Part shown: piece after piece, positions 29,160 through 45,022 of the stretch | How positions within the stretch are numbered: the stretch's first letter is position 1 | How the letters are laid out: the number at the start of each line of letters is the position of its first letter | Virus record (IMG/VR): IMGVR_UViG_3300032245_001466 | Coordinates: 1 to 64,000 of that record | Length of the DNA: 64,000 bases | Source: a virus | Reading direction: 5' to 3' (one strand) | Position numbers and translations under genes: made by a program | The notes under the pieces: generated by a model | Told to the model about the DNA's origin: nothing | The model's input: the letters and a program-made list of their open reading frames with translations, nothing else | Database searches by the model: none

Positions 29160-29277
29160 GACCCTCCGGGTCTATCAGTCGACCAGATACAGACTGCGTG
29201 CGCGTGGCATTCTCTCCTCAGCGGCGAGACACTCTCGCCCATAGACGCATCGGACGCGATGCGAGAAGGAGTCAATC
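29160..29277 (+). promoter_or_regulatory. Plus-array unit 1: palindrome, promoter-like boxes, leader hairpins
   Basis: GACCC-TCC-GGGTC palindrome (29160-29172), TATCAG, a weak ACCAGATACAGAC box, and GGCATTCT at 29206, exactly 33 nt after the palindrome, as in the other units. Two leader hairpins (GGCGAG/CTCGCC and GCATCG/CGATGC) and AAGGAG follow. Confidence 0.65.
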
Positions 29278-29574
29278 ATGACGGATCGAGTAGACGCAAT
29301 CGGAGCCACGCTCCTCGCAATCTTCGCGGCAACGGTTGCCGCTATGATCTTCGGCAGCGTGCCGTTCAGCGTGCTGAACGATCACGCGTTCGCCTACGCG
29401 GTGATGTCGCTCACGATGGGCGTCATCGCAGCGGTAGCGTTCTTCGCTCTCATGGAGTTCGTTGTTGTTCCTGTTGTCGATAGGATCTACTGGGCGCGGC
29501 GAGCAGCACGCCAAGAGCGCGAGCGCATTGAGCGCGCTTATCGCTCGTGGTCAGTCACGCGCAATCAGCGCTAG
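29278..29574 (+). CDS. Two-helix membrane protein (plus-array unit 1)
   Basis: 98 aa. Two hydrophobic segments (about 8-33 and 40-68, IGATLLAIFAATVAAMIFG and MGVIAAVAFFALMEFVVVP) and a strongly basic cytoplasmic tail (RRAARQERERIERAYRSW). It could be a superinfection-exclusion or membrane-acting host-takeover protein; function unknown. It has its own promoter, so it is a single-gene unit. Confidence 0.7.
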   Translation: MTDRVDAIGATLLAIFAATVAAMIFGSVPFSVLNDHAFAYAVMSLTMGVIAAVAFFALMEFVVVPVVDRIYWARRAARQERERIERAYRSWSVTRNQR

Positions 29575-29712
29575 TCGGATTCACCCGCTGTACCGCGGAC
29601 GCGCGGTGCGGCGGGTGGTTCGTTCGCGCCCACCTGTGGCCGCGTTCGATCTCACACACACATAATATAAGTAAGTAACTAAGTAATCTGACTAACCTAA
29701 CAGGTTCGAGAC

Positions 29713-29805
29713 AGCGCTCCGCGCTTATCGAGGCCACCTAATGACTGACCGCTATCGTGGCATTCTCTCGGTGCGGCAGTTGCCGTATAGTTTATTGGAG
29801 GGTGT
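29713..29805 (+). promoter_or_regulatory. Plus-array unit 2 promoter module
   Basis: AGCGC-TCC-GCGCT palindrome (29713-29725), ACCTAATGACTGAC, GGCATTCT at 29759, then leader GCGGCAGTTGCCG and GGAGGG. Upstream, 29669-29700 is a TAAC/TAAG run with stops in all frames. Confidence 0.7.
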
Positions 29806-30120
29806 ATGTTCGAGTATGGTGAACCAGTCGTATCCGCAACCTACCGCAACGACGCGGTCGCAACGGTCACGATGACCTATCCGTCATTGGAGGGCAAGCT
29901 TCCAATGTGGTACACGCTTGATTTGACAATCGGCGATCTACCGCGTCTCGTTTGGGGCTACGGCGAATGGAAGGCGGGTAGCGTCAGCGATACGCCGCGC
30001 GTCTACTCACTGCTCAAGAATATTGGCGTGTGGACGGATGTGCCAGCGTTCATCCGCAGGGATGTTCTCAACGACTACGCGTCATTGGTCGGCGTGACCA
30101 TTCGCGGCAGCGTCCTGTAG
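29806..30120 (+). CDS. Hypothetical protein (plus-array unit 2)
   Basis: 104 aa, beta-rich first half (PVVSATYRNDAVATVTMTYP, WYTLDLTIGDLPRLVWG), helical end. No family recognised. TTGGAGGG before ATG. Single-gene unit with a hairpin after the stop. Confidence 0.65.
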   Translation: MFEYGEPVVSATYRNDAVATVTMTYPSLEGKLPMWYTLDLTIGDLPRLVWGYGEWKAGSVSDTPRVYSLLKNIGVWTDVPAFIRRDVLNDYASLVGVTIRGSVL

Positions 30121-30247
30121 CGCACGCAACCCCCATCGTCCAGACCATCGGGTCTGGGCGGTGGGTGGTTCGTTGGCCGCCCCCCGATGGGCACAGTTCG
30201 ATATCGAGACTCCATAATATAAGTAACAGCCTAACTAAGTTCGAAGC

Positions 30248-30345
30248 GGCGCTCCGCGCCTAACAACACCACCTAAACGAATCTGCTGCTCGTGGCACTC
30301 TCTTGGTGCGGGGCAACAGCACCGCAATAGTATGGAGGGAATCAA
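30248..30345 (+). promoter_or_regulatory. Plus-array unit 3 promoter module
   Basis: GGCGC-TCC-GCGCC palindrome (30248-30260), ACCTAAACGAATC, GGCACTCT at 30294, leader stem TGCGG/CCGCA and GGAGGG. A TAAG/TAAC run precedes it. Confidence 0.7.
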
Positions 30346-30561
30346 ATGGCGTCAACGGCATGGAATCGCAAGAGTGCTGATTGGTATCAGCACAAGGCTA
30401 CTGAGATCGTTGATATTGCGATGGACCTCACGAATCCATCGGCAGACCTGGCGTTGGGTCTAGCCCACAAATGCGCAACGGCGTGGAGCCTCTCACCGCT
30501 CAATCGTGAGAAGTTCATGATGCTCGTATACGCAACGTTCAAGAACGCAATCAAGAAGTAG
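30346..30561 (+). CDS. Hypothetical protein (plus-array unit 3)
   Basis: 71 aa, all-helical and slightly basic (IVDIAMDLTNPSADLALGLA, REKFMMLVYATFKNAIKK). No family recognised. Good ribosome site GGAGGG. Confidence 0.6.
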   Translation: MASTAWNRKSADWYQHKATEIVDIAMDLTNPSADLALGLAHKCATAWSLSPLNREKFMMLVYATFKNAIKK

Positions 30562-30703
30562 ATCGACCAATAGGTCGGCAACAGAATCCACTCGCGGGTC
30601 GCAGTCGATGCGGCTCGCGGGTGGTTCGTTCGCCACCACACACAGGCCAGAGTTCTATCTCGAAGCTATGTAATATAAGTAAGTGGGTAACTAAGTTCGA
30701 CGC

Positions 30704-30806
30704 GGCGCTCCGCGCCTAACATGCCCACCTAAACAACACTCTGGCGTGTGGCACTCTCTGGTCAGCGGCGGACGCGCCGCGTAATCGTATAGTAGTAGGA
30801 GGTAGT
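30704..30806 (+). promoter_or_regulatory. Plus-array unit 4 promoter module
   Basis: GGCGC-TCC-GCGCC palindrome (30704-30716), ACCTAAACAACAC, GGCACTCT at 30750, a GC-rich leader hairpin (GCGGCG/CGCCGC) and AGGAGG. Confidence 0.7.
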
Positions 30807-31103
30807 ATGGTAGACGCAACCGTCAAGCACTACAACCCTATCGAGTGGGTTGTCTGGTTCGTAGAGGATAGGTCGCTATCTGATACGGAGAATAGCATCG
30901 AGTTCACGGAGCTTCAGGATCGTGTGAATGATCGGATCACCGCCGCAATCACGGCGCTCCGTCATTCCAATCCAAACGGCTGGCTCGATAGCCTGGATCA
31001 GGGTGGCATGCGCATCATTAACGATGCGCTCGCGCCGATCCAATGCCGCACGAATCGTCAGGACGATTCTGGCGCGTGGATCATTGAACGAGTAGACGCG
31101 TAA
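30807..31103 (+). CDS. Hypothetical protein (plus-array unit 4)
   Basis: 98 aa: YNPIEWVVWFVEDRSLSDT, then a helical middle (FTELQDRVNDRITAAITALR) and WLDSLDQGGMRIINDALAPI. No family recognised. AGGAGG before ATG. Confidence 0.6.
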   Translation: MVDATVKHYNPIEWVVWFVEDRSLSDTENSIEFTELQDRVNDRITAAITALRHSNPNGWLDSLDQGGMRIINDALAPIQCRTNRQDDSGAWIIERVDA

Positions 31104-31225
31104 AACATCCCCCACTCATCGCGGACGCGCGGTGGGTGGGGGGTTAGTTCGTCGCACCCCGTTCTGTGGCCAAGTTCTAACTCGAGATCCCATAATATAA
31201 CTAACAGCCTAACTAAGTTCGAGTC

Positions 31226-31339
31226 AGCGCTCCGCGCTTAACGAGCACACCTAAATGAATCTGCTGCTCGTGGCATTCTCTTCTTGCGAGCGATGGCACC
31301 CGTATAGCAGCGGTGCTCGCAGAAAGGTAGGTGTTCACG
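31226..31339 (+). promoter_or_regulatory. Plus-array unit 5 promoter module
   Basis: AGCGC-TCC-GCGCT palindrome (31226-31238), ACCTAAATGAATC, GGCATTCT at 31272, then a longer leader hairpin (TGCGAGC/GCTCGCA with inner GCACC/GGTGC) and AAAGGTAGG. Confidence 0.7.
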
Positions 31340-31582
31340 ATGTCTAAGAATGACAATCTTGCCGTCGCGATCAAGCGCCGAGACAATGCTCTCGCGTTGC
31401 TTGTAAGCGCGAAGGCGGATGTTGTTGCTGCGACGCGTCGTATCGCCGAGAGCGGTGGTTCCTATTTGGGGAATCGCCCTTCGTCGCATCCGAGCGTTCA
31501 GACAGCACAACGCGTCCTCTGGAACGTTGAAGAGCAGTACGCCAAAGCGGCGGCTGATCTGGCAACGATCCAGAAGGCGTAG
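31340..31582 (+). CDS. Coiled-coil-like small protein (plus-array unit 5)
   Basis: 80 aa, mostly helical with heptad-like spacing (LAVAIKRRDNALALLVSAKA and VLWNVEEQYAKAAADLATIQ). ATG 31340 follows AGGTAGG; a GTG nine bases upstream is possible. Function unknown. Confidence 0.6.
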   Translation: MSKNDNLAVAIKRRDNALALLVSAKADVVAATRRIAESGGSYLGNRPSSHPSVQTAQRVLWNVEEQYAKAAADLATIQKA

Positions 31583-31745
31583 CGTCCGTCTGGATTCTCC
31601 GAACCGCTCGTCGCTGCTAGGCGAGCGGTTCCCCTTCTCCCCTCACCGAGCAAGCGCGGTGGGGGGAGAGGTCTATCGGGCCTCTCTCACTACGTTCGAT
31701 CCCGACAGTCCATAATATAACTAACTAAGTAACTAAGTTCGAGTC

Positions 31746-31853
31746 AGCGCTCCGCGCTTAACGAGCCAACCTAAATGAATCTGCCGTCCGTGGGAATATT
31801 CATTTGCGACGGGAGAGACGTCGCCCATGTGGTTAAAGCAAATAGGAGGCTCT
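31746..31853 (+). promoter_or_regulatory. Plus-array unit 6 promoter module
   Basis: AGCGC-TCC-GCGCT palindrome (31746-31758), ACCTAAATGAATC, GGGAATATT at 31792 in the place of GGCATT, leader hairpin GCGACG/CGTCGC and AGGAGG. Confidence 0.65.
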
Positions 31854-32126
31854 ATGACGGATACCGAAAAGAAGGCAGCTCCGGTCACGTTGCTGCCATT
31901 TGTTGTCGTGGTCGCACGACTCGTTGAATTCTACATCCCTGTAGCAGCGGCTACAGCGGCTGATGCGAGTGATATCGCTCAGCAGATGGTCATGGATGGC
32001 CATGCTGATGATTTCTCCAACGAATGCGACATCCAGGAGGATGACGTTGACGTTCGGGGGGCGACGTTTGACGATCGCAACCTGTACAAATTCTTTGACG
32101 CGGACGGCGAAGAGCACCGCTTCTAG
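31854..32126 (+). CDS. Hypothetical acidic protein (plus-array unit 6)
   Basis: 90 aa. Starts MTDTEKKAAPVTLLPFVVVV, then a helix and a strongly acidic C-terminus (DDVDVRGATFDDRNLYKFFD). The hydrophobic strand is probably buried rather than membrane-spanning. AGGAGG before ATG 31854. An acidic DNA-mimic role is conceivable but not shown. Confidence 0.6.
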   Translation: MTDTEKKAAPVTLLPFVVVVARLVEFYIPVAAATAADASDIAQQMVMDGHADDFSNECDIQEDDVDVRGATFDDRNLYKFFDADGEEHRF

Positions 32127-32273
32127 ATCCTGACCGCCATCTCTCGGCGGTCAACATCCCCCTCACCGCAGCGATGCGGTGAGGGGGATGGTAGATCCCT
32201 AGTCTCTCTCACTACGTTCGAGCTCGAGAATCCGCAATATAACTAACTAACTAACTAACCCAGAGTTCGACTC

Positions 32274-32392
32274 GCCGCTCCGCGGCTAACATGCGTACCT
32301 AAATGAATCGGGCGGTCGGGGCATTATGTCGGCACGGGGACGCCCGACGCGTTGTGAATCGCAACGCGAAACAGAATCAAATAGGAGGCAGT
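32274..32392 (+). promoter_or_regulatory. Plus-array unit 7 promoter module
   Basis: GCCGC-TCC-GCGGC palindrome (32274-32286; arms differ from other units yet pair), ACCTAAATGAATC, GGCATTAT at 32320, leader hairpin GCGTTG/CAACGC and AGGAGG. Confidence 0.7.
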
Positions 32393-32653
32393 ATGGACGC
32401 ACTGGAAATCTTGTACAAGGTATTCGCACTATCGTATGTTGCCGAGCGCGAGGCGTATCGCAATGTTCAGCGTTGGGAGACGCTCGCAGCGGCGCAGGGG
32501 AAACCCGAACCGCAGTACGCAACCGATAGCGTGTACGCTTCGCTCATTGATGAGTGGGACGAAGCGCACAAGGAACTGAAGAAGTTTGAGCGCGAACTTC
32601 TCAAGGAGTACCGCAAGCAGCGAGCAGCGGGCACCTTCACAGTGATGGCGTAG
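32393..32653 (+). CDS. Helical coiled-coil protein (plus-array unit 7)
   Basis: 86 aa, almost all helix (EILYKVFALSYVAEREAYRN, EAHKELKKFERELLKEYRKQ), probably a coiled-coil dimer. The start at ATG 32393 is set by AGGAGG; longer upstream frames have none. Function unknown. Confidence 0.65.
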   Translation: MDALEILYKVFALSYVAEREAYRNVQRWETLAAAQGKPEPQYATDSVYASLIDEWDEAHKELKKFERELLKEYRKQRAAGTFTVMA

Positions 32654-32793
32654 ACACCGCCACGACACCACACCCCATCAACCGCGGACGCGCGGTTGGT
32701 GGGGTGGTCGGTCGGTACTCTCTCTCACGTTGTTCGAGCTCGGCAGCCCATAAGATAACTAACTAACTAACTAACCAATAACTGGTTCGAATC

Positions 32794-32888
32794 GGCGCTC
32801 CGCGCCTAACGAGCCCACATAAACGAATCCGTCGCCTATGACATTATTCAGGTGCGGCAGTTGCCGTGTAGTATGAAAGGGGAAAGAA
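32794..32888 (+). promoter_or_regulatory. Plus-array unit 8 promoter module
   Basis: GGCGC-TCC-GCGCC palindrome (32794-32806), ACATAAACGAATC, GACATTAT at 32840, leader GCGGCAGTTGCCGTGTAG and AAAGGGG. The leader segment GGCAGTTGCCGTGTAG is identical to one in minus-array unit 11. Confidence 0.7.
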
Positions 32889-33215
32889 ATGTCACACGAG
32901 TTAGAGTTCAGTCACGATCCAAAGAGCGTCGCAGATCCCTGCTCTCTGGATAGTATCGTTGAGGCGTACATTGAATTCCGCAACGCACCTGTGCGTGGCA
33001 CGAATCTCGTTTATCGGCAAATGCCCGTAGACGAGATGCTCGCGATGACGCGCCGACCAGAGGATTTCATTGAGAGGCTAGGATCGTGGGCTGCGATCTG
33101 GGGTTCAGATTCTCAGCGATACGACATCGGCAAGTTCGGGTGGTGGTCCTGCTCCGAGTGCGGCGCCGATGACATTGAGTTAGGTTCATACGACGACGAG
33201 TGCGACGAAGAGTAG
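32889..33215 (+). CDS. Hypothetical protein with single CxxC (plus-array unit 8)
   Basis: 108 aa. YIEFRNAPVRGTNLVYRQMP in the middle and a C-terminal GWWSCSECGADDIELGSYDD. The last motif resembles GYWECEECGEESKRIS at the end of unit 11, so the two proteins may be distant relatives. Function unknown. Confidence 0.65.
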   Translation: MSHELEFSHDPKSVADPCSLDSIVEAYIEFRNAPVRGTNLVYRQMPVDEMLAMTRRPEDFIERLGSWAAIWGSDSQRYDIGKFGWWSCSECGADDIELGSYDDECDEE

Positions 33216-33223
33216 TCGCCAAT

Positions 33224-33264
33224 CGCTCCACTCTCCCACCGCTCACCGCTTCGGCGGTGGGCGG
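33224..33264 (+). terminator. Terminator of plus-array unit 8
   Basis: CCCACCGC/GCGGTGGG-type stem closed by a UUCG-like loop region (CTCACCGCTTCGGCGGTG). Equivalent UUCG or near-UUCG hairpins follow the stops of units 7, 9, 10 and 11 (about 32160, 33770, 34300 and 34865); units 2 to 6 have related GC-rich hairpins there. Confidence 0.6.
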
Positions 33265-33343
33265 TGGTAGTTCCATCCCGAGTCTCTCACTTCGTTCGAT
33301 CTCGAAACTCCATAAGATAACTAACTAACTGGGCGTTCGATCC

Positions 33344-33436
33344 GACGCTCCGCGTCTATCAGGAGAACCTAAACAATAATGGCGTCTATGTCATTGTCTC
33401 TCTGCGGCACCTGCCGTATAGTTTGTAGGAGGTAGT
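33344..33436 (+). promoter_or_regulatory. Plus-array unit 9 promoter module
   Basis: GACGC-TCC-GCGTC palindrome (33344-33356), ACCTAAACAATAA, GTCATTGT at 33390, leader GCGGCACCTGCCG and AGGAGG. Confidence 0.7.
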
Positions 33437-33760
33437 ATGTCGGACACAGAAACGATGAGCCTTCAGGAGATGGCTCGCGAACTGACGGTAATGCGCATTG
33501 AGCGTTCCCGCTGCTGCGATCCATACGATTGTATGCATCACGAGATGTGCGGCGAAGAGTGGTACGGGAAATGCAGCGGCTGCGAGCGTCGTGCGTACCT
33601 TTCCAATGAATTCTACGCTGCGTGCGAAGCAGAGAATGCAGATCCTGCCGCGCTGCTCAATGCAGAAGAGCGCGCTATTGAGGATGAGCGCTTTGACTTC
33701 TACTCGCGAATGAACGAGTGGGGCAATGACGACGCTGCCTTCTGGACCGATCAAGAGTAG
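33437..33760 (+). CDS. Cysteine-rich acidic protein (plus-array unit 9)
   Basis: 107 aa. Six cysteines in CCDPYDCMHHEMCGEEW and CSGCERRAYL make a zinc site; helical and acidic afterwards (AEERAIEDERFDFYSRMNEW). AGGAGG precedes ATG. Function unknown. Confidence 0.65.
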   Translation: MSDTETMSLQEMARELTVMRIERSRCCDPYDCMHHEMCGEEWYGKCSGCERRAYLSNEFYAACEAENADPAALLNAEERAIEDERFDFYSRMNEWGNDDAAFWTDQE

Positions 33761-33873
33761 TCGCATCACCCCGTTCACCGCTTTGGCGGTGGGCGGGGTG
33801 GTCTACCGAGGCTCTCTCACTACGTTCGATACCGAACCCCCGTAAGATAACTAACTAACCCTGAGTTCGACTC

Positions 33874-33969
33874 GGCGCTCCGCGCCTAACGAGAGCACCT
33901 AAATGAATCACCCCCTCGTGGCATTCTCTTGGTGCGGCACTTGCCGCGTAGTATGAAAGGGGAGCGCAA
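33874..33969 (+). promoter_or_regulatory. Plus-array unit 10 promoter module
   Basis: GGCGC-TCC-GCGCC palindrome (33874-33886), ACCTAAATGAATC, GGCATTCT at 33920, leader GCGGCACTTGCCGC and AAAGGGGAG. This unit is closest to the array consensus. Confidence 0.75.
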
Positions 33970-34275
33970 ATGTTTGATTGCGTAAAGCACGGCGAGGTAG
34001 CGAAGAGTCTCAGTGGCTATTGCGTTGCTTGCTGCTCAGAGGATCATATCTGCGAAACCTGCGGATTGCGCAGCGGCAGTGATGATGGCTTCACTCTCGT
34101 TGAGTGGCGCAGCACGCAAATTTGGAAGGGTCAGATGCTTTGCGATGATTGCGTTGCGTGCGCAGATTGCGAAGTTTCTGGTGACGGTACCGTGAACACC
34201 CACAACGATTACAGCGAACTGCTTTGCGATGCTTGCGTTGAGGATCGCGACGCAGAGTGGGAGAGCGAAGAGTAG
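33970..34275 (+). CDS. Multi-zinc-ribbon protein (plus-array unit 10)
   Basis: 101 aa with at least six Cys pairs: CVACCSEDHICETCG, CDDCVACADCEVSG and CDACVEDRD. Probably two zinc knuckles, LIM-like in spacing, and an acidic tail. It may be a protein- or nucleic-acid-binding adaptor; family unknown. Confidence 0.7.
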   Translation: MFDCVKHGEVAKSLSGYCVACCSEDHICETCGLRSGSDDGFTLVEWRSTQIWKGQMLCDDCVACADCEVSGDGTVNTHNDYSELLCDACVEDRDAEWESEE

Positions 34276-34413
34276 TCACAACCGATCCACTCCACCATCG
34301 TCAACCGCTCGGCGGTTGGCGGTGGTGGTTCAATCGGGAGTCTCTCACTTCGTTCGATCCCGACAGTCCGTAATATAACTAACTAATTAACTAACTAATA
34401 ACTGGTTCGACTC

Positions 34414-34508
34414 GGCCCTCCGGGCCTATCGGCCTAACATAAATGAATCAATCGTTTGCCGTACTCTCTGGGTGCGGCGGTTGCCGTGTAGTAATAAGGA
34501 GGCTAGTA
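34414..34508 (+). promoter_or_regulatory. Plus-array unit 11 promoter module
   Basis: GGCCC-TCC-GGGCC palindrome (34414-34426), ACATAAATGAATC, CGTACTCT at 34460, leader GCGGCGGTTGCCGTGTAG and AAGGAGG. Confidence 0.65.
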
Positions 34509-34853
34509 ATGGGAGCAATGAAGAATCAAGCAATAGAGGAGCGCAACGATAGCGTCGTTGATTATCACACATGGCGATTCGTAGAAGCCGATGGCGGTGC
34601 TGATCAGCACGCGCTAGAGTGGTGGGCGTCATCATACGCTCGCCGTGCCGATACCGCCGACGAAGCGGTAGACGTCATGGAGAAGCCGCATCACTACGCT
34701 GAGGAGATTGCAGAGTTCGCCAGCATTTATGCTGACGCGAGCGATGACGACCTCTCGCTATTCGGCTATTGGGAGTGTGAAGAGTGCGGCGAAGAGTCCA
34801 AGAGGATCTCGCACTCGATAGACATGGCGAAGACCTGCTACGGTCAGCAGTAG
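34509..34853 (+). CDS. Hypothetical protein with CxxC (plus-array unit 11)
   Basis: 114 aa, helical and acidic (QHALEWWASSYARRADTADE, ASIYADASDDDLSLFG), ending GYWECEECGEESKRIS. It shares the aromatic-x-C-x-E-C-G ending with unit 8. AAGGAGG selects ATG 34509 over upstream in-frame starts. Confidence 0.65.
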   Translation: MGAMKNQAIEERNDSVVDYHTWRFVEADGGADQHALEWWASSYARRADTADEAVDVMEKPHHYAEEIAEFASIYADASDDDLSLFGYWECEECGEESKRISHSIDMAKTCYGQQ

Positions 34854-34982
34854 CGCACCGCCCCACTCACCGCTTCGGCGGTGGGTGGGGCGGTCTATCG
34901 GGCCTCTCTCACTTCGTTCGAGCTCGCCAACCTGACTAATAACTAACTGCATAACTAACTAAGATAACTAACCTAACGTTCT

Positions 34983-35082
34983 GACGCTCGCTCCGCTCGC
35001 TTCGGCCGAACTATAATGAACCCAGCGATTCAGGCACTATGTCGGTGCGGGGCTTCCCGTGTTGCGATAAGGAGGCAATAAA
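34983..35082 (+). promoter_or_regulatory. Plus-array unit 12 promoter module (divergent)
   Basis: The palindrome is degenerate (GCTCGCTCCGCTCGC, then TTCGGCCGAA), but ACTATAATGAACC and GGCACTAT at 35033 keep the spacing. Leader CGGTGCGGGGCTTCCCG and AAGGAGG. CTATAATG contains a TATAAT that could serve as a second promoter. Confidence 0.5.
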
Positions 35083-35313
35083 ATGGTAGCGTGCCAAGAT
35101 TGTGGCGTTGAGTTCTTCAACGAGTTTGAGCCACTATCAACTATCTGCGCAGCGTGCGTAGATGAGCGCGATTCCTATTACGAGAAATGGGCGGCAGAAT
35201 ACGCTGACGCTATGGCGGAAGAAGATGACGCTTGGGAGCGCACCAAGCGCAGGATTAGCCCTGAGCGCGGGTTTATCGGAACGGATACCGACCCGCTACC
35301 AGGCGGCGACTAA
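35083..35313 (+). CDS. Small zinc-ribbon protein (plus-array unit 12)
   Basis: 76 aa. CQDCGVEFFNEFEPLSTICAAC is a compact CxxC...CxxC ribbon; the rest is helical and acidic (YYEKWAAEYADAMAEEDDAW). Last gene of the plus array, facing the minus array. Confidence 0.65.
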   Translation: MVACQDCGVEFFNEFEPLSTICAACVDERDSYYEKWAAEYADAMAEEDDAWERTKRRISPERGFIGTDTDPLPGGD

Positions 35314-35455: not shown

Positions 35456-35773
35456 TTATGCTTCTGCCTTTGCCTCGGCTTTCGCGTCATCTACATAGGT
35501 GCGTGCGATTTCGTGCCAGTTGATTGCCTCAACCGCGGCGCGCAATAGGTCTGCCTCAAGTCCTGCCGCCTTCGTTGTCCAAGTTTCGTCAATCTCGTTG
35601 CGCAAGGTGTCCGCGAGAGTGTCGGCGGCGTCGTCCGTGTCGCCTTCGTTGTCCGTAAGAATCTCGGCGGCAATCTCCGCAACATAGTCGCTGCCGCCCG
35701 CATAGCCTTCGCCAATCCACAACGCGGCAAGCCAAGTTTCGTAGTTGCTCCAGCCGTTGTATTGTCCGCTCAT
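35456..35773 (-). CDS. DUF7249-like protein (minus-array unit 1)
   Basis: 105 aa. YNGWSNYETWLAALWIGE at the N-terminus is typical of a small phage/plasmid family (DUF7249-like, NGWxNYETWxxxLW). The rest is helical and acidic. GGAGG before ATG, own sigma-70 promoter, terminator shared with the array junction. Family function unknown. Confidence 0.7.
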   Translation of the reverse strand: MSGQYNGWSNYETWLAALWIGEGYAGGSDYVAEIAAEILTDNEGDTDDAADTLADTLRNEIDETWTTKAAGLEADLLRAAVEAINWHEIARTYVDDAKAEAKAEA

Positions 35774-35878
35774 TGTCTAGCCTCCTTCTATGCCTTGCCC
35801 AAGTGGGCTAGTCGCATTATAGAGTGAGATTCTGCGCCCTGTCAAGCGTTCTATCTCAGGTAGCCGGGGCTACCTGAG
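35774..35878 (-). promoter_or_regulatory. Minus-array promoter 1 with upstream palindrome
   Basis: TTGACA (35840-35845), 18 nt, TATAAT (35816-35821). Upstream a perfect 10-bp palindrome CTCAGGTAGC with its complement and a 4-nt loop (35855-35878). Leader hairpin GCCCACTTGGGC and GGAGG follow. A UUCG-capped terminator of the preceding unit lies at about 35892-35912. Confidence 0.85.
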
Positions 35879-35954
35879 CCATAACAATAAACCCCGCCGA
35901 AGCGGGGCTTATCGTTTCACGACGGGGGGCTAGTTCCCCGTAGCGAGCATCTAG

Positions 35955-36176
35955 TTATCGCGCAAGCGCGACGGCCTCTTGTACGCGGCTTGCCGCGCCC
36001 TCGGCGCTACCGAACTCCTCAATGCCGAACACCTCAACGAGATTGTTTACAAAGTCGGTCGCCATCTTCTCAAAGTAGAAGGTCGTATCGCCCTCCGCGT
36101 CCTGCCCCTCATACCAACGGGCAAAGGTTGTGCTTGCTCCGTTTGTGTGAATCTGATACCAAGTGTTTGCGTTCAT
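35955..36176 (-). CDS. Hypothetical protein (minus-array unit 2, second gene)
   Basis: 73 aa, begins MNANTWYQIHTNGASTTFAR; aromatic beta N-terminus then a helix (SAEGAASRVQEAVALAR). It starts 5 nt after the preceding stop, so it is cotranscribed with the zinc protein at 36182. Function unknown. Confidence 0.6.
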   Translation of the reverse strand: MNANTWYQIHTNGASTTFARWYEGQDAEGDTTFYFEKMATDFVNNLVEVFGIEEFGSAEGAASRVQEAVALAR

Positions 36177-36181
36177 TAGTC

Positions 36182-36331
36182 CTACTCCTCACATACGCAG
36201 GTTTCGCACCCGCAGTTGATTTTGTTGTGGCACTTCTCGCAAAGCACCTTGCCGCTCTGGTTGAGTGTTTCGCTCATACCATCGCCGCAGTTCTCGCAGG
36301 GCGAGTAGTCCAAGTCCTCAAAGGTCGCCAT
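36182..36331 (-). CDS. Small zinc-binding protein (minus-array unit 2, first gene)
   Basis: 49 aa with eight cysteines: CENCGDGMS, CEKCHNKINCGCETCVC. Two zinc sites are likely. GGAGGCTAGAA before ATG, the same ribosome-site sequence used by its neighbours. Function unknown. Confidence 0.65.
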   Translation of the reverse strand: MATFEDLDYSPCENCGDGMSETLNQSGKVLCEKCHNKINCGCETCVCEE

Positions 36332-36436
36332 TTCTAGCCTCCTATTCCTAGCCAGCCCAAGTGGGCTACGGGCATTATAGAGTCATCTTCTGCCTGCCGT
36401 CAAGTGGTTCTAGTCCAATCTGCCGAGGCAGATTGG
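36332..36436 (-). promoter_or_regulatory. Minus-array promoter 2 with upstream palindrome
   Basis: TTGACG (36398-36403), 18 nt, TATAAT (36374-36379). Palindrome CCAATCTGC with its complement (36415-36436, loop CTCG on the minus strand). Leader hairpin GCCCACTTGGGC. Just upstream, AACGAGGGG/CCCCTCGTT with TTTTTG terminates the previous unit. Confidence 0.85.
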
Positions 36437-36492
36437 AGGCAAACAAAAACGAGGGGCGCACCCCTCGTTTCTGTTTTCTGAGCTGCGAAACC

Positions 36493-36900
36493 TTACGCGA
36501 TAGGGTAGCCGCCCAGTTCTAGCAGCGTGCGGATTTCTTCCACCTGCTCATCATTGAGGGCGAGCGTCTGCCCGTCCTTATCCTCTGCGGTGAGTACGCA
36601 GTTGCCATAGATGCCGTCAAAGTTTCCGCCGAGGATTTCATTTCGCAGCGAAGTTGCCGCCTGATTGCGGACGACTGGCTCATTGAAAAGCCCTTCCTCA
36701 TCGCACCAGAGCACCACACTCGTTGCGCCGTACTTGCCAGAAACCGCAACCTCGGTAATGTCAAACTCGCCCACGCGGTAAATCTCTTTGAGCGTGCTGC
36801 CGTCATCGTTGAAGTCCACCACCTCAACCCAGTTGAAGAGTGCGCCGTTTGGCGTTGCGTCCTCAAACTTGCCGACTCCGAACTTGAACGCCTTACCCAT
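36493..36900 (-). CDS. Hypothetical protein (minus-array unit 3)
   Basis: 135 aa, beta-rich (FNWVEVVDFNDDGSTLKEIY, YGATSVVLWCDEEGLFNEP) with a C-terminal IYGNCVLTAEDKDGQTLALN and helix. The last part resembles small phage DUF3846-type proteins, but I cannot assign it firmly. GGAGGCTAG before ATG. Confidence 0.6.
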   Translation of the reverse strand: MGKAFKFGVGKFEDATPNGALFNWVEVVDFNDDGSTLKEIYRVGEFDITEVAVSGKYGATSVVLWCDEEGLFNEPVVRNQAATSLRNEILGGNFDGIYGNCVLTAEDKDGQTLALNDEQVEEIRTLLELGGYPIA

Positions 36901-37010
36901 TTTCTAGCCTCCTACTTTTTCCATCGGGAAGCCCCGACCTCTGAATCTTACGCGATAAATCCGCAGCCTGTCAAGCGGGTTCTACCCCTAATGGCCGGAG
37001 CCATTAGGGG
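36901..37010 (-). promoter_or_regulatory. Minus-array promoter 3 with upstream palindrome
   Basis: TTGACA (36969-36974), 18 nt, TAAGAT (36945-36950). An 11-bp palindrome CCCCTAATGGC with its complement and UCCG loop (36985-37010). Leader hairpin TCGGGGCTTCCCGA. No separate terminator lies between it and the preceding gene, so the palindrome itself may end transcription. Confidence 0.85.
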
Positions 37011-37030
37011 CTGAACTATTATCTGGCGAT

Positions 37031-37372
37031 TTAGGCGAAGACGCTTGTGATGTCCTGCATTTCGCGCTCAGCGGCTTCGGCGGAATCAAAGACAACGAAG
37101 TCAATGAATCCATCGTTGCGCCAGTGAACGATTGCATACTGGAACCTATCGTAAGTCCCATCAAGTTCGGTTTCATACGATTCATCTGGGATAGCAACGC
37201 CATCCATCGTATCTCCATAGATGAGTTCAATCTTGATAGCGTGCGGCTCAACGCGGCTCCGAACTTCTGGTCGGAGATACCAAACTGGGCACTTGCTGCA
37301 CACTTCGCCCTGTGAGCAGTGGAACTGGTAGAAGTCGCTCTTCGTGAGTGAGATTGCAAACGCCTTGAACAT
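37031..37372 (-). CDS. Hypothetical protein (minus-array unit 4)
   Basis: 113 aa. MFKAFAISLTKSDFYQFHC and CSKCPVWYLRPEVRSRVEPH, then alternating strands and helix (YAIVHWRNDGFIDFVVFDS, AEAAEREMQDITSVFA). Possibly one zinc pair. GGAGGCTAGG before ATG. Confidence 0.6.
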   Translation of the reverse strand: MFKAFAISLTKSDFYQFHCSQGEVCSKCPVWYLRPEVRSRVEPHAIKIELIYGDTMDGVAIPDESYETELDGTYDRFQYAIVHWRNDGFIDFVVFDSAEAAEREMQDITSVFA

Positions 37373-37476
37373 CCTAGCCTCCTGTTCTCAATCAGCCCAA
37401 GTGGGCTACGCCCATTGTAATGTGAACTTTCCCAGCCTGTCAAGCGTTCTATCCCAAGTGGCCTCGGCCACTTGGG
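37373..37476 (-). promoter_or_regulatory. Minus-array promoter 4 with upstream palindrome
   Basis: TTGACA (37438-37443), 18 nt, TACAAT (37414-37419). Palindrome CCCAAGTGGC with its complement, loop CGAG (37453-37476). Leader hairpin GCCCACTTGGGC. Upstream terminator AAGCGGGCTAGTTG with its complement at about 37492-37527. Confidence 0.85.
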
Positions 37477-37573
37477 GCATAACAATAATAAAGCGGGCTA
37501 GTTGGCTGCGATCAACTAGCCCGCTTGGGGAAGAGGTGGTGGAGGCTGCCGCCACCTCGTAGACATTAGTCCG

Positions 37574-37837
37574 CTATGCGAACTCAAACTGGCGACAATC
37601 TGCGCCGAACAAACAACTGGCTGGCTCGTGTGGTTGTGGCTCTATTGCCCAGTTTAGGCAAGTGCCGCAAGAATCGCCACAAAGGTTGATGTCATCCCAG
37701 TCAAAGACAGGTCCGAGGGTGTTGCCCTCGCGGTCAGTTGTCTGTGGGTCGTCAAGCGCGTCGCCGAAGCGAACCTCAGCGCACGCCACGCAATGGAATG
37801 AACCCTCGTAAGTCCAAGCCAAGATTCTGCTATCCAT
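37574..37837 (-). CDS. Cysteine-containing protein (minus-array unit 5)
   Basis: 87 aa. Cysteines in CVACAEVRFGD, LCGDSCGTCLNW and CLFGADCRQF suggest two metal sites. AGGAGG before ATG 37837; an upstream in-frame start lacks a ribosome site. Function unknown. Confidence 0.6.
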   Translation of the reverse strand: MDSRILAWTYEGSFHCVACAEVRFGDALDDPQTTDREGNTLGPVFDWDDINLCGDSCGTCLNWAIEPQPHEPASCLFGADCRQFEFA

Positions 37838-37940
37838 AAGTCCTCCTACTCGCAACTATCGGTAGTTCCCGACCACACGATTATACGCGATAAGTTCTGA
37901 GCCTGTCAAGTTCCACCGCAAGGAGCCGAGGCTCCTTGCG
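37838..37940 (-). promoter_or_regulatory. Minus-array promoter 5 with upstream palindrome
   Basis: TTGACA (37904-37909), 18 nt, TATAAT (37880-37885). Palindrome CGCAAGGAGC with its complement, loop CTCG (37917-37940). Leader hairpin TCGGGAACTACCGA. Confidence 0.85.
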
Positions 37941-37954
37941 CCTACCCAATAATG

Positions 37955-38035
37955 CTATCTACTGCTGATGAGGGCGAGTGTGTACAGCATTAGGAGCAGG
38001 AGCAGCCCGTAGAAGATGGCGTACTCCACAATCAT
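37955..38035 (-). CDS. 26-residue membrane peptide (minus-array unit 6, second gene)
   Basis: MIVEYAIFYGLLLLLMLYTL plus six residues: one transmembrane helix. The ATG overlaps the upstream stop (ATGA), so translation is coupled. A 26-codon membrane ORF with the same coupling is found at 47137. Confidence 0.5.
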   Translation of the reverse strand: MIVEYAIFYGLLLLLMLYTLALISSR

Positions 38036-38289
38036 ACAACCACGCTTTGGAGCGCGTCGTAGCAGTCATCGCATAGCGACTGCTTATGCTCGTAGGCGTT
38101 CTCGTAGCCGTTCCAGCCGTAGGCAAACGAACGCGTCTTGCCCTCAAACGGGCAACGCTTGTCCAGACCAAGAGCCTCCTCGCCCTCGCACTCCTGAACC
38201 ATTGGGTGATCGTGCGTTTCGCACTCGCATTGGTCGTAGTAGCAATCGCCGTTGCCACACATCGTCATTGACGCTTGTAGGTATGCCAT
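38032..38289 (-). CDS. Cysteine-rich protein (minus-array unit 6, first gene)
   Basis: 85 aa. MCGNGDCYYDQCECETHDH at the N-terminus and SLCDDCYDALQSV at the C-terminus form probable zinc sites. AAGGAGGCAACA before ATG 38289. Function unknown. Confidence 0.65.
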   Translation of the reverse strand: MAYLQASMTMCGNGDCYYDQCECETHDHPMVQECEGEEALGLDKRCPFEGKTRSFAYGWNGYENAYEHKQSLCDDCYDALQSVVV

Positions 38290-38395
38290 TGTTGCCTCCT
38301 TCACTAGCCTCCCCAAGTGGGGTACTCGTATTCTATACACACTCCTAGCCAGCCGTCAAGCGGGGTTCTAGTCATCTTTGCCGGAGCAAAGATGA
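38290..38395 (-). promoter_or_regulatory. Minus-array promoter 6 with upstream palindrome
   Basis: TTGACG (38354-38359), 18 nt, TAGAAT (38330-38335). Palindrome TCATCTTTGC with its complement, UCCG loop (38372-38395). Confidence 0.8.
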
Positions 38396-38408
38396 GCAGA
38401 ACAAATAG

Positions 38409-38628
38409 AAAGACCCCCCAGAGCCGTCGCCCTGAGAGGTCTTTCCTCGGATTCGTTGTCTGGGGCTAATCACTTCCCCAGACTCCTTTTCCTTCCGCTC
38501 CGCCGATACATTGGCTCCTAGCGGTCATCGTCCTTTGCGTCTCTATCCCCGCATTTCTTGGCTGCGGCATCTGCTCGCTCGTCCAGAGTCTCACCCAGTC
38601 GGTTGCTATTCCTAGGATCGCTTCCGAC
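38409..38628 (-). ncRNA. Candidate structured non-coding RNA 1
   Basis: A canonical array promoter reads into about 220 nt with no ribosome site and no convincing ORF, ending in an intrinsic terminator (AAAGACC/GGTCTTT stem, 38409-38444, then TCTATTTGTT). Within it lie GTCGG/CCGAC at the 5' end (38598-38628), CCGCA/TGCGG (38549-38567), CCGCT/AGCGG with inner GCC/GGC (38495-38524), and an 8-bp GTCTGGGG/CCCCAGAC hairpin (38458-38483). The last can be replaced by AGACTC/GAGTCT (38480-38485 with 38586-38591), a possible switch. A 54-codon ORF starting 4 nt after the -10 is possible but improbable. Confidence 0.55.
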
Positions 38629-38749
38629 ATAGGGAGTATCTCACCTCGTCTGGGGTCTTGTCAAGCACTTTCCCAAAGATTCTTTATGAATCTTTTTTAT
38701 CCACCAGCCGCCCCCTTGACAGTTCTATCCCGAAGTGCAGCTGCACTTC
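38629..38749 (-). promoter_or_regulatory. Minus-array promoter 7 (drives ncRNA 1) with distant palindrome
   Basis: TTGACA (38659-38664), 18 nt, GATACT (38635-38640). The palindrome CCCGAAGTGC with its complement (38726-38749) sits about 60 nt further upstream than in other units. Between them lies a plus-oriented terminator-like hairpin (AAGATTC/GAATCTT then TTTTT, about 38673-38700). Confidence 0.7.
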
Positions 38750-38792
38750 GGGCTGCCACAATAATAAACTCAAAGAACAAGGAGCCAAATAA

Positions 38793-38927
38793 CTAACTCT
38801 CTTGCGGGTGCTCGCAGTTTTCTGACTGCTCCAACTCGTAGCACGCGTTATCCCGAACGGGATTGTCTACACACTCGCAGACAATCTCATTGCGTTCGCA
38901 GTCATCGCACCAAACCATCGTACTCAT
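38793..38927 (-). CDS. Small Cys-rich acidic protein (minus-array unit 8, third gene)
   Basis: 44 aa. CDDCERNEIVCECVDN, then CYELEQSENCEH: seven cysteines in total, probably a zinc site. TAATG overlap with the preceding gene. Function unknown. Confidence 0.55.
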   Translation of the reverse strand: MSTMVWCDDCERNEIVCECVDNPVRDNACYELEQSENCEHPQES

Positions 38928-39145
38928 TAGAGCCTCCCAGTTCCGCCGCAGCCGCAGATGCCGCCCTCGCAGGTTGCGCCTTCCTCAACGAGCAGCGCGC
39001 AGCCGTACTTCTCGGCTCGGTGTTCCTCGCACGATTCGCAGTAAAGAGCAGATTTGCCAGACTCATTGTTGTCGGAGATGTACGCTGCCTGACCGTCGCA
39101 GAAGTCGCAGAAGCGCGACTCCAAGATGAACTCGCCCTCGCTCAT
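38927..39145 (-). CDS. Zinc-ribbon protein (minus-array unit 8, second gene)
   Basis: 72 aa. CDFCDGQAAYISDN and CESCEEHRAEKYG form one ribbon; the end CEGGICGCGGTG is a second cysteine cluster. The start overlaps the upstream stop (ATGA). Function unknown. Confidence 0.65.
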   Translation of the reverse strand: MSEGEFILESRFCDFCDGQAAYISDNNESGKSALYCESCEEHRAEKYGCALLVEEGATCEGGICGCGGTGRL

Positions 39146-39351
39146 AGTGCCACCTCAAATCCGTCAGCCTGAATACCATCTAGAATCTGCTGAACATAGC
39201 GGCGCTCAATCGCAAGACCGCGACCAAGATACATCGCGTCCTCGCCGATGTTCTCGTCCAGCCAGCGGCGAGCATCGCTCGTCGTCGGAGTGAGTAGGCA
39301 GACGGAGCCGCCGTCCGTGAGCGTGAAGTCCGCGCTGTGCTTCTTTGCCAT
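39142..39351 (-). CDS. Hypothetical protein (minus-array unit 8, first gene)
   Basis: 69 aa: DFTLTDGGSVCLLTPTTSDA then ARRWLDENIGEDAMYLGRGL and YVQQILDGIQADGFEV. A small alpha/beta fold; many phage proteins of this size and pattern are known without function. AGGAGG precedes ATG. Confidence 0.65.
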   Translation of the reverse strand: MAKKHSADFTLTDGGSVCLLTPTTSDARRWLDENIGEDAMYLGRGLAIERRYVQQILDGIQADGFEVAL

Positions 39352-39452
39352 TGTGTCCTCCTATCGCAACGCGCCCAAGTGAGCGTGAGGAAAGTGTAAA
39401 TGATCATTGACCAGCCGTCAAGTTCTAACTCAAACAGCCGCGGCTGTTTGAG
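39352..39452 (-). promoter_or_regulatory. Minus-array promoter 8 with upstream palindrome
   Basis: TTGACG (39416-39421), 17 nt, TACACT (39393-39398). Palindrome CTCAAACAGC with its complement, loop CGCG (39429-39452). Confidence 0.8.
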
Positions 39453-39465
39453 CCGAAACAATAAA

Positions 39466-39668
39466 GGGGAGCCGCGCCAGACACCACATCTGGCACGACT
39501 CCCCGCGTATCGCCGCTATGACGCTTATCCCCTTGCGGAGGCAACCTTCGGCTCTCGCCTAGTTGCTGCTGACTCTACCTTCTCTGGTTAGGAGCCCAAG
39601 AGCCAGACCTTATCGTCGCGGGCAGTTCGTCAATCTGCCAACTAGCCGTCCTCTACACGGCGCGGATT
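39466..39668 (-). ncRNA. Candidate structured RNA 2 (3' region of unit 9)
   Basis: After the stop of the unit-9 gene about 165 nt of non-coding sequence lead to a terminator (GGGGAG plus GCCAGA stems, 39466-39504, then TTTATTG). Paired segments include GCCGT/ACGGC (39645-39661), a closing stem CTAGTTG/CAACTAG (39559-39565 with 39639-39645) around TCTGG/CCAGA (39583-39607) and GGCAG/CTGCC (39621-39639), a GCAA-capped CUCC/GGGG hairpin and a GAGA-capped GGC/GCC. Two GNRA tetraloops and a multibranch closing stem suggest a folded RNA. No own promoter is visible. Confidence 0.5.
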
Positions 39669-39671
39669 TAT

Positions 39672-39956
39672 TTACGCTTTCACCTCGTACTGCTCGCCGC
39701 CGATTCGCAGCGCGGTGATTGCGTCAAGGGCGATTGAGCGATAGCCCTCTGCGGTAATGTCATAGACGAAGATGAGGTCTTTGGCAGCAGCGTCATACGC
39801 AGCCTCGCCGCCTTTGAGATGCTTCTTTACGCCAAGACGCGCCGTCATCTTGCGAAGTTCGCCCGTGGTTCGCTTGATGAAGTCCACGCCGAAGATTGCG
39901 CCATTGCTGTTGCGAATCATCTCTGCCGCTTCGCTTCGCTTGATTGCCTTTGCCAT
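39672..39956 (-). CDS. Conserved phage/plasmid small protein, SH3-like (minus-array unit 9)
   Basis: 94 aa. Pattern MIRNSNGAIFGVDFIKRTTG, RLGVKKHLKGGEAAYD, DLIFVYDITAEGYRSIALD and GGEQYEV. This small beta-rich family (KKHLKGG and GYRSI motifs) is widespread in phages and plasmids, without known function. GGAGGAAGAA selects ATG 39956. Confidence 0.7.
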   Translation of the reverse strand: MAKAIKRSEAAEMIRNSNGAIFGVDFIKRTTGELRKMTARLGVKKHLKGGEAAYDAAAKDLIFVYDITAEGYRSIALDAITALRIGGEQYEVKA

Positions 39957-40062
39957 TTCTTCCTCCTTGTTCACAGCACCCCAATCGGGGCAAGCCCATT
40001 ATAGGGTCATCTTTTGCCAGCCGTCAAGTGGGTTCTAGCCCAAGAGGCCGGAGCCTCTTGGG
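39957..40062 (-). promoter_or_regulatory. Minus-array promoter 9 with upstream palindrome
   Basis: TTGACG (40022-40027), 18 nt, TATAAT (39998-40003). Palindrome CCCAAGAGGC with its complement, UCCG loop (40039-40062). Confidence 0.85.
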
Positions 40063-40078
40063 GCTGAACTATAATCGC

Positions 40079-40255
40079 CTACTTCCAGTCTTCTGGAACT
40101 AACTGCCAATCCTTTTCGCAATCACTAGAATAAAGGTCGCAATGCCGACACCAGACGACAAAGCAGCCCTCCTCGTGTCCGTCTTTCTCGCAATCAGACC
40201 AGAGCCAATGCGCCTCGCGAAGATTGTCTGGGCAGTCGCAGCGAAGAACGCTCAT
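40079..40255 (-). CDS. Small Cys/His-rich protein (minus-array unit 10, second gene)
   Basis: 58 aa. CDCPDN, CEKDGHEEGC and WCRHCDLYSSDCEKDW give two possible zinc sites. ATGA overlap with the upstream gene. Function unknown. Confidence 0.6.
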   Translation of the reverse strand: MSVLRCDCPDNLREAHWLWSDCEKDGHEEGCFVVWCRHCDLYSSDCEKDWQLVPEDWK

Positions 40256-40701
40256 AGGACTTCGCAACCTTTCAGGGTGCGGCAAAGACCCAGAAACTCT
40301 CGCCACTCCTCAATAATCGCAACCCAAGCCGTAGCCTCTTCATCTGGGTCAGCCTTCGTCTTATCGTCCGTGTACGGGCTGGCAAGAAGAATACCAGTAA
40401 TAATCTTCTTGATTTCTTCTTCGCTCAACTTGGAGATGGCATTGTGTAGTTCTTCGCACTCATAGTCCTTGATGATGTTGCCGCTGTTATCGTACAGATT
40501 CTCATTGACCTCGGTGAATCCAATCTCATCGTGGAAAGCGCGCAGGTAGCCCATACCCCAAATGTTCAGTCGGAAATAGACCGCGCTTGGAGCCTTCTCA
40601 GCGTAAGAGCCGTCTGGCTCAATCCACATTGAGCGGAACTTCTTGGCGTGCGCCGCAGCCAGTTCACGATTCTCTCGCAATGAGTAGATGTCGTATCCCA
40701 T
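40252..40701 (-). CDS. Hypothetical protein (minus-array unit 10, first gene)
   Basis: 149 aa. MGYDIYSLRENRELAAAHAK, YFRLNIWGMGYLRAFHDEIG and SKLSEEEIKKIITGILLASP. The start MGYDIY... and an aromatic N-terminal half recur in small phage proteins, but the family is not certain. GGAGGACAAA precedes ATG 40701; an upstream in-frame extension lies in the promoter region. Confidence 0.65.
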   Translation of the reverse strand: MGYDIYSLRENRELAAAHAKKFRSMWIEPDGSYAEKAPSAVYFRLNIWGMGYLRAFHDEIGFTEVNENLYDNSGNIIKDYECEELHNAISKLSEEEIKKIITGILLASPYTDDKTKADPDEEATAWVAIIEEWREFLGLCRTLKGCEVL

Positions 40702-40803
40702 TTTGTCCTCCTTATTCCACACCCCAATCAGGGCAAGGTCATTGTAAGGTACCGCTCTCCGCTCGTCAATAGGTTCTAGCCAAGATGGCCGGAGCCATCT
40801 TGG
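40702..40803 (-). promoter_or_regulatory. Minus-array promoter 10 with upstream palindrome
   Basis: TTGACG (40764-40769), 17 nt, TACAAT (40741-40746). Palindrome CCAAGATGGC with its complement, UCCG loop (40780-40803). Upstream terminator AACCGCC-TTCG-GGCGGTT with TTTTTTG at about 40812-40830. Confidence 0.85.
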
Positions 40804-40854
40804 GTACAACAAAAAACCGCCCGAAGGCGGTTAGTTGTTTGGAAATAATCCTGA

Positions 40855-41331
40855 CTAAACGATAACTTCCTGCGGCTCCATAAGCCCAGCCCAGATGTTT
40901 GGCACATTAGAGCGGATGCTCGTGTATCCGTCAGAGGAAATAACGAGATGGTCAAGAAACTCAATGTCCAACAGGCGCGCCCCTGCCACCAAGTCCTCAG
41001 TTAGTTTCTTGTCCTCGTCGGACGGAGTGTGGTCGCCGCTTGGGTGATTGTGAACAACCACAATGCCCTGACCGCCAGTCAGGATACAAGAGCGAAACAC
41101 TTCGTTGATGCGAACGCTTGTGCCTGTTGCCGTGCCAAGATAGACCTGCTCAATCCCGATGAGATTATTCCTTGCCCCAAGCACCATCACAAACAGCGAC
41201 TCCTGATTAGAGTCCTTTGCGAAATCGCGGAACATCTTTACTGCCTCGGCTGGCTGCTCAACCCTCTCATCGGACTGATCAGCAACCTTCTTTCTCTTTA
41301 CCACCATTTCGTATGCTTTCCAGTTCTTCAC
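40855..41331 (-). CDS. RadC-like JAB-domain protein (minus-array unit 11, second gene)
   Basis: 158 aa. VVVHNHPSGDHTPSDED is the JAB/JAMM metal motif (HxH...D) of RadC-like proteins, followed by LLDIEFLDHLVISSDGYTSI. Residues 1-35 are a basic extension. RadC-like genes are common in mobile elements and defence islands; their biochemical role is unsettled. The start overlaps the upstream stop by ATGA. Confidence 0.85.
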   Translation of the reverse strand: MKNWKAYEMVVKRKKVADQSDERVEQPAEAVKMFRDFAKDSNQESLFVMVLGARNNLIGIEQVYLGTATGTSVRINEVFRSCILTGGQGIVVVHNHPSGDHTPSDEDKKLTEDLVAGARLLDIEFLDHLVISSDGYTSIRSNVPNIWAGLMEPQEVIV

Positions 41332-41876: not shown

Positions 41877-41984
41877 ACTGCCTCCTTATGTCCTCTTATC
41901 GGGAAGCCCCGACCTGCTTATTCTAAGACCACGCTTGACCCGCTGTCAAATGGGTTCTAGTCCAATGAGCCGGAGCTCATTGGA
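41877..41984 (-). promoter_or_regulatory. Minus-array promoter 11 with upstream palindrome
   Basis: TTGACA (41944-41949), 18 nt, TAGAAT (41920-41925). Palindrome TCCAATGAGC with its complement, UCCG loop (41961-41984). Leader hairpin TCGGGGCTTCCCGA. No other terminator precedes it. Confidence 0.85.
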
Positions 41985-42004
41985 GGCGAACTATTATCTG
42001 CTTA

Positions 42005-42885: not shown

Positions 42886-42940
42886 AAAACAAAAATCCCG
42901 CCCCGAAGGGCGGGATTTCTGGTTGATCTTCTGGTGAAGA

Positions 42941-44003: not shown

Positions 44004-44088
44004 TGGAACATAATAATAAGCCCCCCGAATAATCGAGGGGCTTATTACTTTGTGGGGCGCAGGGAGGACGCCTTGCGCCCCGAAGTCA

Positions 44089-45004: not shown

Positions 45005-45022
45005 CGCGAACTAATTATTTTT

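Follow-up and report, generated by a model that had tools for sequence, protein, structure and literature searches.

In the middle promoters of phage T4, a MotA box lies 12 ± 1 bp from the -10 element and about half of the promoters carry TGn (PMC2988021). The DNA-hairpin early promoters of phage N4 require -12A, a closing base pair, a purine at -11, -10G, -8G and +1C on the template strand (PMC4496689), and the SAS/ESAS elements of Cluster K mycobacteriophages are repeated short inverted-repeat modules which, with putative promoters, precede many small genes (PMC3203893, PMC11373665). Here, a repeated module upstream of small genes is compared with these systems. It was found in the first 64,000 bases (the window) of the IMG/VR virus record IMGVR_UViG_3300032245_001466, which has a total of 82,937 bases. 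Judged from the sequence, the module is well supported as a distinct, conserved promoter class, and it looks like a switch, specific to the phage, that turns on a set of genes, because the layout is retained in related phages.

Twelve plus-strand modules (29,160-35,047) contain a TCC-loop palindrome, TAWC, an A-rich box and a hexamer in a rigid register. An earlier note on this DNA had described twelve units with a TCC loop and a distance of 33 nt from the palindrome end to the position of GGCATT, and both features were recovered in 12/12 modules. The note had also assigned a perfect 5-bp palindrome and TAWC to every unit; each is present in 11 out of 12 modules and absent from the last unit (34,987), which contains CTCGC-TCC-GCTCG, not a palindrome, followed by CTTC. 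The box occurs as the exact string ACCTAAATGAATC in four of the twelve modules and is strongly divergent in the first unit (CCAGATACAGACT). TGn precedes the hexamer in nine modules. The pattern TCC-N5-TAWC-N6-ACCTAA has eight matches in the window, all inside the array, and none in 100 dinucleotide-preserving shuffles. When the 64 possible triloops of 5-bp palindromes were compared genome-wide, TCC ranked first with 12 on the plus strand (the runner-up has 5). A covariance model confined module matches to plus arrays, and within this genome the module is restricted to the plus array. The modules, the genes that they are predicted to drive and the minus-strand array used as an internal comparison are as follows.

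29,160-29,220, plus strand: module 1; hairpin 29,160-29,172, divergent box 29,183-29,195, -10 hexamer CATTCT 29,208-29,213, predicted +1 at 29,220
29,713-29,773, plus strand: module 2; hairpin AGCGC-TCC-GCGCT, box, -10 hexamer CATTCT, predicted +1 at the last base
30,248-30,308, plus strand: module 3; hairpin GGCGC-TCC-GCGCC, -10 hexamer CACTCT
30,704-30,764, plus strand: module 4; hairpin GGCGC-TCC-GCGCC, -10 hexamer CACTCT
31,226-31,286, plus strand: module 5; hairpin AGCGC-TCC-GCGCT, box ACCTAAATGAATC, -10 hexamer CATTCT
31,746-31,806, plus strand: module 6; hairpin AGCGC-TCC-GCGCT, box ACCTAAATGAATC, -10 hexamer GAATAT
32,274-32,334, plus strand: module 7; hairpin GCCGC-TCC-GCGGC, box ACCTAAATGAATC, -10 hexamer CATTAT
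32,794-32,854, plus strand: module 8; hairpin GGCGC-TCC-GCGCC, -10 hexamer CATTAT
33,344-33,404, plus strand: module 9; hairpin GACGC-TCC-GCGTC, -10 hexamer CATTGT
33,874-33,934, plus strand: module 10; hairpin GGCGC-TCC-GCGCC, box ACCTAAATGAATC, -10 hexamer CATTCT
34,414-34,474, plus strand: module 11; hairpin GGCCC-TCC-GGGCC, -10 hexamer TACTCT
34,987-35,047, plus strand: module 12; degenerate hairpin CTCGC-TCC-GCTCG, -10 hexamer CACTAT, unchanged spacing
29,278-35,313, plus strand: twelve small single genes, one per module, predicted to be module-driven
29,278-29,574, 29,806-30,120, 30,346-30,561 and 30,807-31,103, plus strand: examples of these genes
32,889-33,215, 33,437-33,760, 33,970-34,275 and 35,083-35,313, plus strand: further examples
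35,456-45,424, minus strand: minus array with promoters of the TTGACR-17/18-TATAAT type, a purine +1 and leader hairpins like those of the plus array

Pattern and capsid searches identified three other IMG/VR phages (G001, G003 and G004) that carry 35 more modules of the same grammar, giving a total of 47 in four phages. The alignment comprises 45 modules and the two others fit the same spacing. From hairpin to hexamer the 45 modules align without gaps, save for one that is 1 nt shorter. Counted from the predicted +1, the elements lie at -60 to -48 (hairpin), -47 to -44 (TAWC), -37 to -25 (box ACCTRAAMTRAAY) and -12 to -7 (hexamer). The hexamer [C/T/G]AYTNT is defined by A2 (44/45), T4 (42/45) and T6 (44/45), the predicted +1 is a purine in 44/45 modules and position -1 is a pyrimidine in 41/45. 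It reads CATTCT in this phage and TATTCT, TACTCT or GATTAT in the relatives. In G003 and G004 the GG of GGCATT is replaced (GCGTATTCT or GCCTACTCT), and the register of the hexamer is therefore CATTCT. The earlier note had placed the -10 element at GGCATT; the shared position of the downstream box stands, but the exact string is present in only five of the twelve modules and lies two bases out of register, so that the -10 assignment was moved by 2 nt after comparison with the relatives and the minus array. A sigma-54 promoter was also considered, as TGGCAT is similar to a -24 element, and was rejected because the spacing to a -12 element is wrong and the GG is unconserved.

The spacing between hairpin and hexamer is constant in 46/47 modules although about 20 intervening columns are near random. 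The hexamer of these modules lies 24-102 nt from the start codon (21 values; a small number of start codons come from automatic calls and may be wrong), and the loop lies 50-137 nt from an upstream GTTCGA box (18 values). Only the hairpin-to-hexamer interval is fixed, despite its near-random spacer, and this is the best evidence that the hairpin, the box and the hexamer may act in one complex. The covariance model found no modules at significant scores in the distant relatives G009, G013, G016 and G017.

The minus array supports the placement of the start. CATTCT aligns with the TATAAT-type hexamers of that array relative to the purine +1 and the leader hairpin, and the leader GGCAGTTGCCGTGTAG, reported earlier as common to both arrays, indeed follows TACAAT in the minus array (~42,820) at an equal 7-nt offset. 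A canonical sigma-70 promoter (a TTGACA-like -35, 16-18 nt and TATAAT) is present in the minus array and absent from the plus modules. The earlier statement that neither box of the plus modules is sigma-70-like holds for the -35, as a promoter consensus scan of the region gave 3 promoter-like sites vs. 3.6 expected, but does not extend to the downstream box, where a -10-type hexamer with A2 and T6 lies two bases later. The core thus looks like a -10 of the sigma-70 family, often TGn-extended, with the -35 box and the hairpin as its unusual parts. The proposal of a second promoter class holds in that the modules are distinct from the TTGACR/TATAAT promoters, are conserved in relatives and have a predicted start just before the leader hairpin; absence of the motif from relatives with the same genes, which would have spoken against it, was looked for and the class stood. 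Upstream of nearly all minus-array promoters stand GTTC, a palindrome with 10-bp arms and a 4-nt loop, and TAGAAC, but the distance from palindrome to -35 is variable (mostly 7-12 nt), and a fixed hairpin distance is therefore special to the plus class. The arms of these palindromes, also in the arrays of G003, G004 and G005, vary freely with near-perfect pairing, and their loops occur in both orientations (GGCG, CGCC), as if the palindromes flip or copy from strand to strand.

A sister clade (G005 and relatives) has plus arrays with a TCC-loop hairpin, GTAC, an A-rich box (often AAAGAATC), a hexamer (GATGAT, once GATGCT) and a purine +1, with a spacing fixed at 44 nt in 11/11 distinct modules. 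The two clades share hairpin, hexamer, start and leader, the distance from box to hairpin is unchanged, and the sister clade differs in the box itself and in a fixed spacing of its own. As box and spacing differ clade-wise, specificity appears to have changed jointly in all units of a phage. Recombination can occur in cassette arrays, and their gene content varies among the relatives, which would suit an explanation in which exchange between cassettes keeps the modules alike as repeats and ordinary weak promoters lie at some place within them. This explanation is very improbable, as modules within a phage have diverged in spacers and leaders yet keep the exact spacing, and the layout is kept by four phages and the sister clade. 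A host alternative sigma factor of the stress or extracytoplasmic function type could instead read CCTRAA and NAYTNT as -35 and -10 with no phage factor involved; their position and ~18-nt spacer are typical of such a pair and the hexamer is unlike the main-sigma consensus. Against it, the box reaches 6 nt into the spacer, the sister clade differs in box and distance, and we know of no sigma consensus matching CCTRAA/NAYTNT. We regard this explanation as quite improbable. The earlier note had offered a host alternative sigma among its candidates; a dedicated one is judged less probable than the host polymerase working with a putative phage factor.

The hairpin arms covary. In the plus modules 93.5% of the cells are paired, compared with 78.6% in shuffles (a level reached in 0/500 shuffles), and 26 double changes were counted vs. 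6.3 in shuffles, with G-U in 0/215 cells. Selection on RNA structure usually leaves G-U pairs. Because the arms covary without them, a DNA-level palindrome or structure is probably what is maintained, rather than an RNA; template switching can also keep palindromes perfect. The minus-array palindromes likewise lack an RNA signature (4 G-U and 7 A-C among 850 cells) and their loops occur as both reverse complements. An RNA-level hairpin was rejected on these grounds for both arrays. The loop of the plus class never flips: its template strand is invariably C-GGA-G, which belongs to the GNA mini-hairpins, whose triloops are generally hyperstable as DNA hairpins (PMC4686876).

A box, GTTCGA-n2/3-TCGA...CCATAATATAACTAAC, is conserved upstream of the plus modules (window 29,650-34,960) except for the first unit of each array, and TAAC repeats follow it. 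Directly 5' of the plus hairpin, GTTCGANNC occurs in 10/12 units (e.g., 34,405-34,413); it is similar to the tRNA T-loop consensus and no tRNA was predicted at those sites. Transcription might start farther upstream, near the GTTCGA...TAATATAACTAAC box, leaving hairpin, box and hexamer as parts of a long regulatory leader RNA. The presence of the GTTCGA box with TAANNT-like hexamers in nearly all units and the arm covariation are consistent with this, but the first units lack the box, its distance varies where the hairpin-to-hexamer distance is fixed, the arms contain no G-U pairs and, unless the hexamer is the -10, the leader hairpin does not fall at +2 in both arrays. Such an upstream start is unlikely.

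Sequence conservation, invariant spacing and arm covariation were observed together with a layout homologous to that of canonical promoters; from here we infer the start sites, the host polymerase, an activator and the role of a DNA hairpin. The moderately probable reading that we favour is a phage-specific, activator-dependent promoter class read by the host RNA polymerase. The modules would switch on each plus-array gene individually. The host's RNA polymerase, carrying its main sigma factor, would read a weak, often TGn-extended -10 ([C/T/G]AYTNT, -12 to -7) and start at the purine just before the leader hairpin. The box (-37 to -25) would substitute for the missing -35 and be the binding site of a factor under phage control, which would recruit the polymerase or redirect it in the manner of MotA at T4 middle promoters. 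The GC palindrome (-60 to -48) would be a third element of the same complex, acting as a DNA structure (hairpin or cruciform) because its distance to the -10 is fixed. No RNA polymerase of the phage's own was detectable, which counts for the host enzyme.

The geometry of T4 middle promoters, which work by sigma appropriation with MotA and AsiA, is reproduced in 46/47 modules, where the box ends 12 nt before the hexamer. Both systems replace the -35 with a phage box 12 bp from the -10, have TGn in a large share of promoters and use host polymerase (here by inference) with no phage-encoded polymerase. The modules differ from T4 in a longer and different box, a weaker -10 (NAYTNT, with T at position 4 in 42/45, rather than an excellent match to TAtaaT), an added hairpin in a fixed place and single-gene cassettes. 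Pfam named no MotA or AsiA among the conserved open reading frames scanned, a subset of all. One weak candidate for the activator was identified.

54,815-55,207, minus strand: candidate factor, a 130-aa protein with a predicted MerR/BldC-like winged helix-turn-helix and a second helix-turn-helix

The helix-turn-helix prediction has moderate confidence and the whole chain has no significant match. Every near-complete genome that bears an array (G000, G003, G004, G005 and G022) encodes the protein, as does G001, and no array-less genome does. A 71-residue stand-alone sigma-70 region 4 protein (48,520-48,735, minus strand; Sigma70_r4, 1.6e-13) without other sigma regions has homologues in G016 and G017; it was rejected as specificity factor since it was not found in the array-bearing G003, G004 and G005.

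Several observations weigh against an activator-dependent host-read promoter. Dozens of other genes share the distribution of the helix-turn-helix candidate, many genes tracking the array because the array-bearing phages form one clade. The hexamer favours T, not A, at position 4 and often loses T1, and it may not be a main-sigma -10. Between the clades the box shifts by ~5 bp relative to the -10 (farther in the sister clade). Copies within a phage are open to homogenization by recombination, so that the 47 modules represent far fewer independent observations. Furthermore, the different start that an N4-type reading would predict, 43 nt upstream, is equally conserved (C then purine, 45/45).

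In such an N4-type promoter, the TCC-loop palindrome (GGA on the template), TAWC and the purine would be the promoter and a hairpin-reading polymerase would start right after TAWC. The N4 early hairpins were located in EF056009 by a scan for 5-bp/3-nt palindromes, and their assignment to P1-P3 is based on agreement with the published description (PMC4496689): GTTGC-TTC-GCAAC-TTAT-GG, GAAGC-TCC-GCTTC-TTTT-GG and GCTGC-TCC-GCAGC-TTTT-GG. The modules (GNNGC-TCC-GCNNC-TAWC-R) are a close fit to the N4 consensus GNNGC-TYC-GCNNC-4 nt-G, and two out of three N4 hairpins have the TCC loop. Of the template positions that N4 requires, -12A, the closing pair, the -11 purine and -10G are each present in all 45 modules, -8G in 41 and +1C in 37. 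Hairpins of strict N4 grammar number 5 in G000, 8 in G003 and 9 in G004, compared with 0.2 expected per shuffled genome. The polymerase is what fails. A profile of 11 diverse virion RNA polymerases, which in a hold-out control recovers divergent members at 1e-64, found none, and neither did phmmer or blastp; for the giant tail protein and elsewhere, hhalign and a motif search were negative as well (a PF00940 search was uninformative, as its own controls were not recovered). Only 3 of the 2,628 residues of the giant tail protein are Trp, and its N-terminus is poorly conserved. In addition, the sister clade lacks -8G, an N4-type start does not need a fixed spacing to a hexamer 40 nt downstream, and the general hyperstability of GNA triloops in DNA makes convergence possible (PMC4686876). 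Because the DNA element passes the comparison and the polymerase does not, the modules are not classed as N4 promoters, and N4-type initiation as such is improbable here.

Both systems share a 5-bp stem, a 3-nt TCC loop on the coding strand, a GC heptamer and a 4-nt W-rich spacer followed by G or A. They differ in that no virion RNA polymerase was found here, the hairpin stands at a fixed distance from a -10-like hexamer, there are 12 copies rather than 3 and the tail genes are siphophage-like. The modules thus resemble N4 grammar without such a polymerase having been found, and may be partly N4-like in their working. A combination in which an N4-type extruded hairpin, recognised through its GGA template-strand loop, is coupled at a fixed distance to a bacterial-type -10 is rather doubtful; the hairpin or cruciform would then serve host polymerase as an upstream activating element or a supercoiling sensor, or alternatively would mark initiation from the hairpin by an unrecognised polymerase.

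By gene content the genome is that of a tailed phage (SU10-type major capsid protein, portal, terminase and tape-measure protein) with small replication proteins, among them SSB and a DnaC-like loader, and the tail genes are not those of Schitoviridae. The record looks circular, as the end of its final large open reading frame repeats the start of the window's first. The tape-measure protein (L009 53-7,937 plus window 1-3,077) is giant (~3,600 residues) and cysteine-free, with an N-terminal extension of ~1,700 residues that is poorly conserved among relatives and for which a viral scan returned no close relatives. One open reading frame (13,804-15,972, minus strand) combines an S78 prohead protease with a ferritin-like domain. 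Pfam returned no match for the seven plus-array genes searched. Isolated phages gave no DNA match and no tblastn match to the major capsid protein; a related capsid protein is present in more than 80 IMG/VR loci. A terminase-based host search gave a single 55% match, to an Anaerolinea metagenome bin, which is too weak for naming a host.

The Cluster K elements resemble this array in that short modules with inverted repeats, accompanied by putative promoters, recur ahead of many small single genes. ESAS repeats, by contrast, are 17 bp long, have variable spacers and lie near a 13-bp element at the start codon; they are unrelated in sequence, and the putative promoters there carry both -35 and -10 hexamers. 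The SAS/ESAS element GGGATAGGAGCCC was not present next to the start codons in the sequence read. What is novel in the promoter class described here is the putative role of the hairpin. If the favoured reading is true, this lineage of uncultivated phages possesses a promoter grammar of its own, in two clade-specific versions, in which an element that depends on structure is kept in strict register with the start site. Such phages would offer a natural series in which to study how the specificity of polymerase becomes redirected and to test whether DNA hairpins serve as promoter elements beyond the N4-like phages, and knowledge of the grammar would make these small, uncharacterised genes findable in metagenomes.

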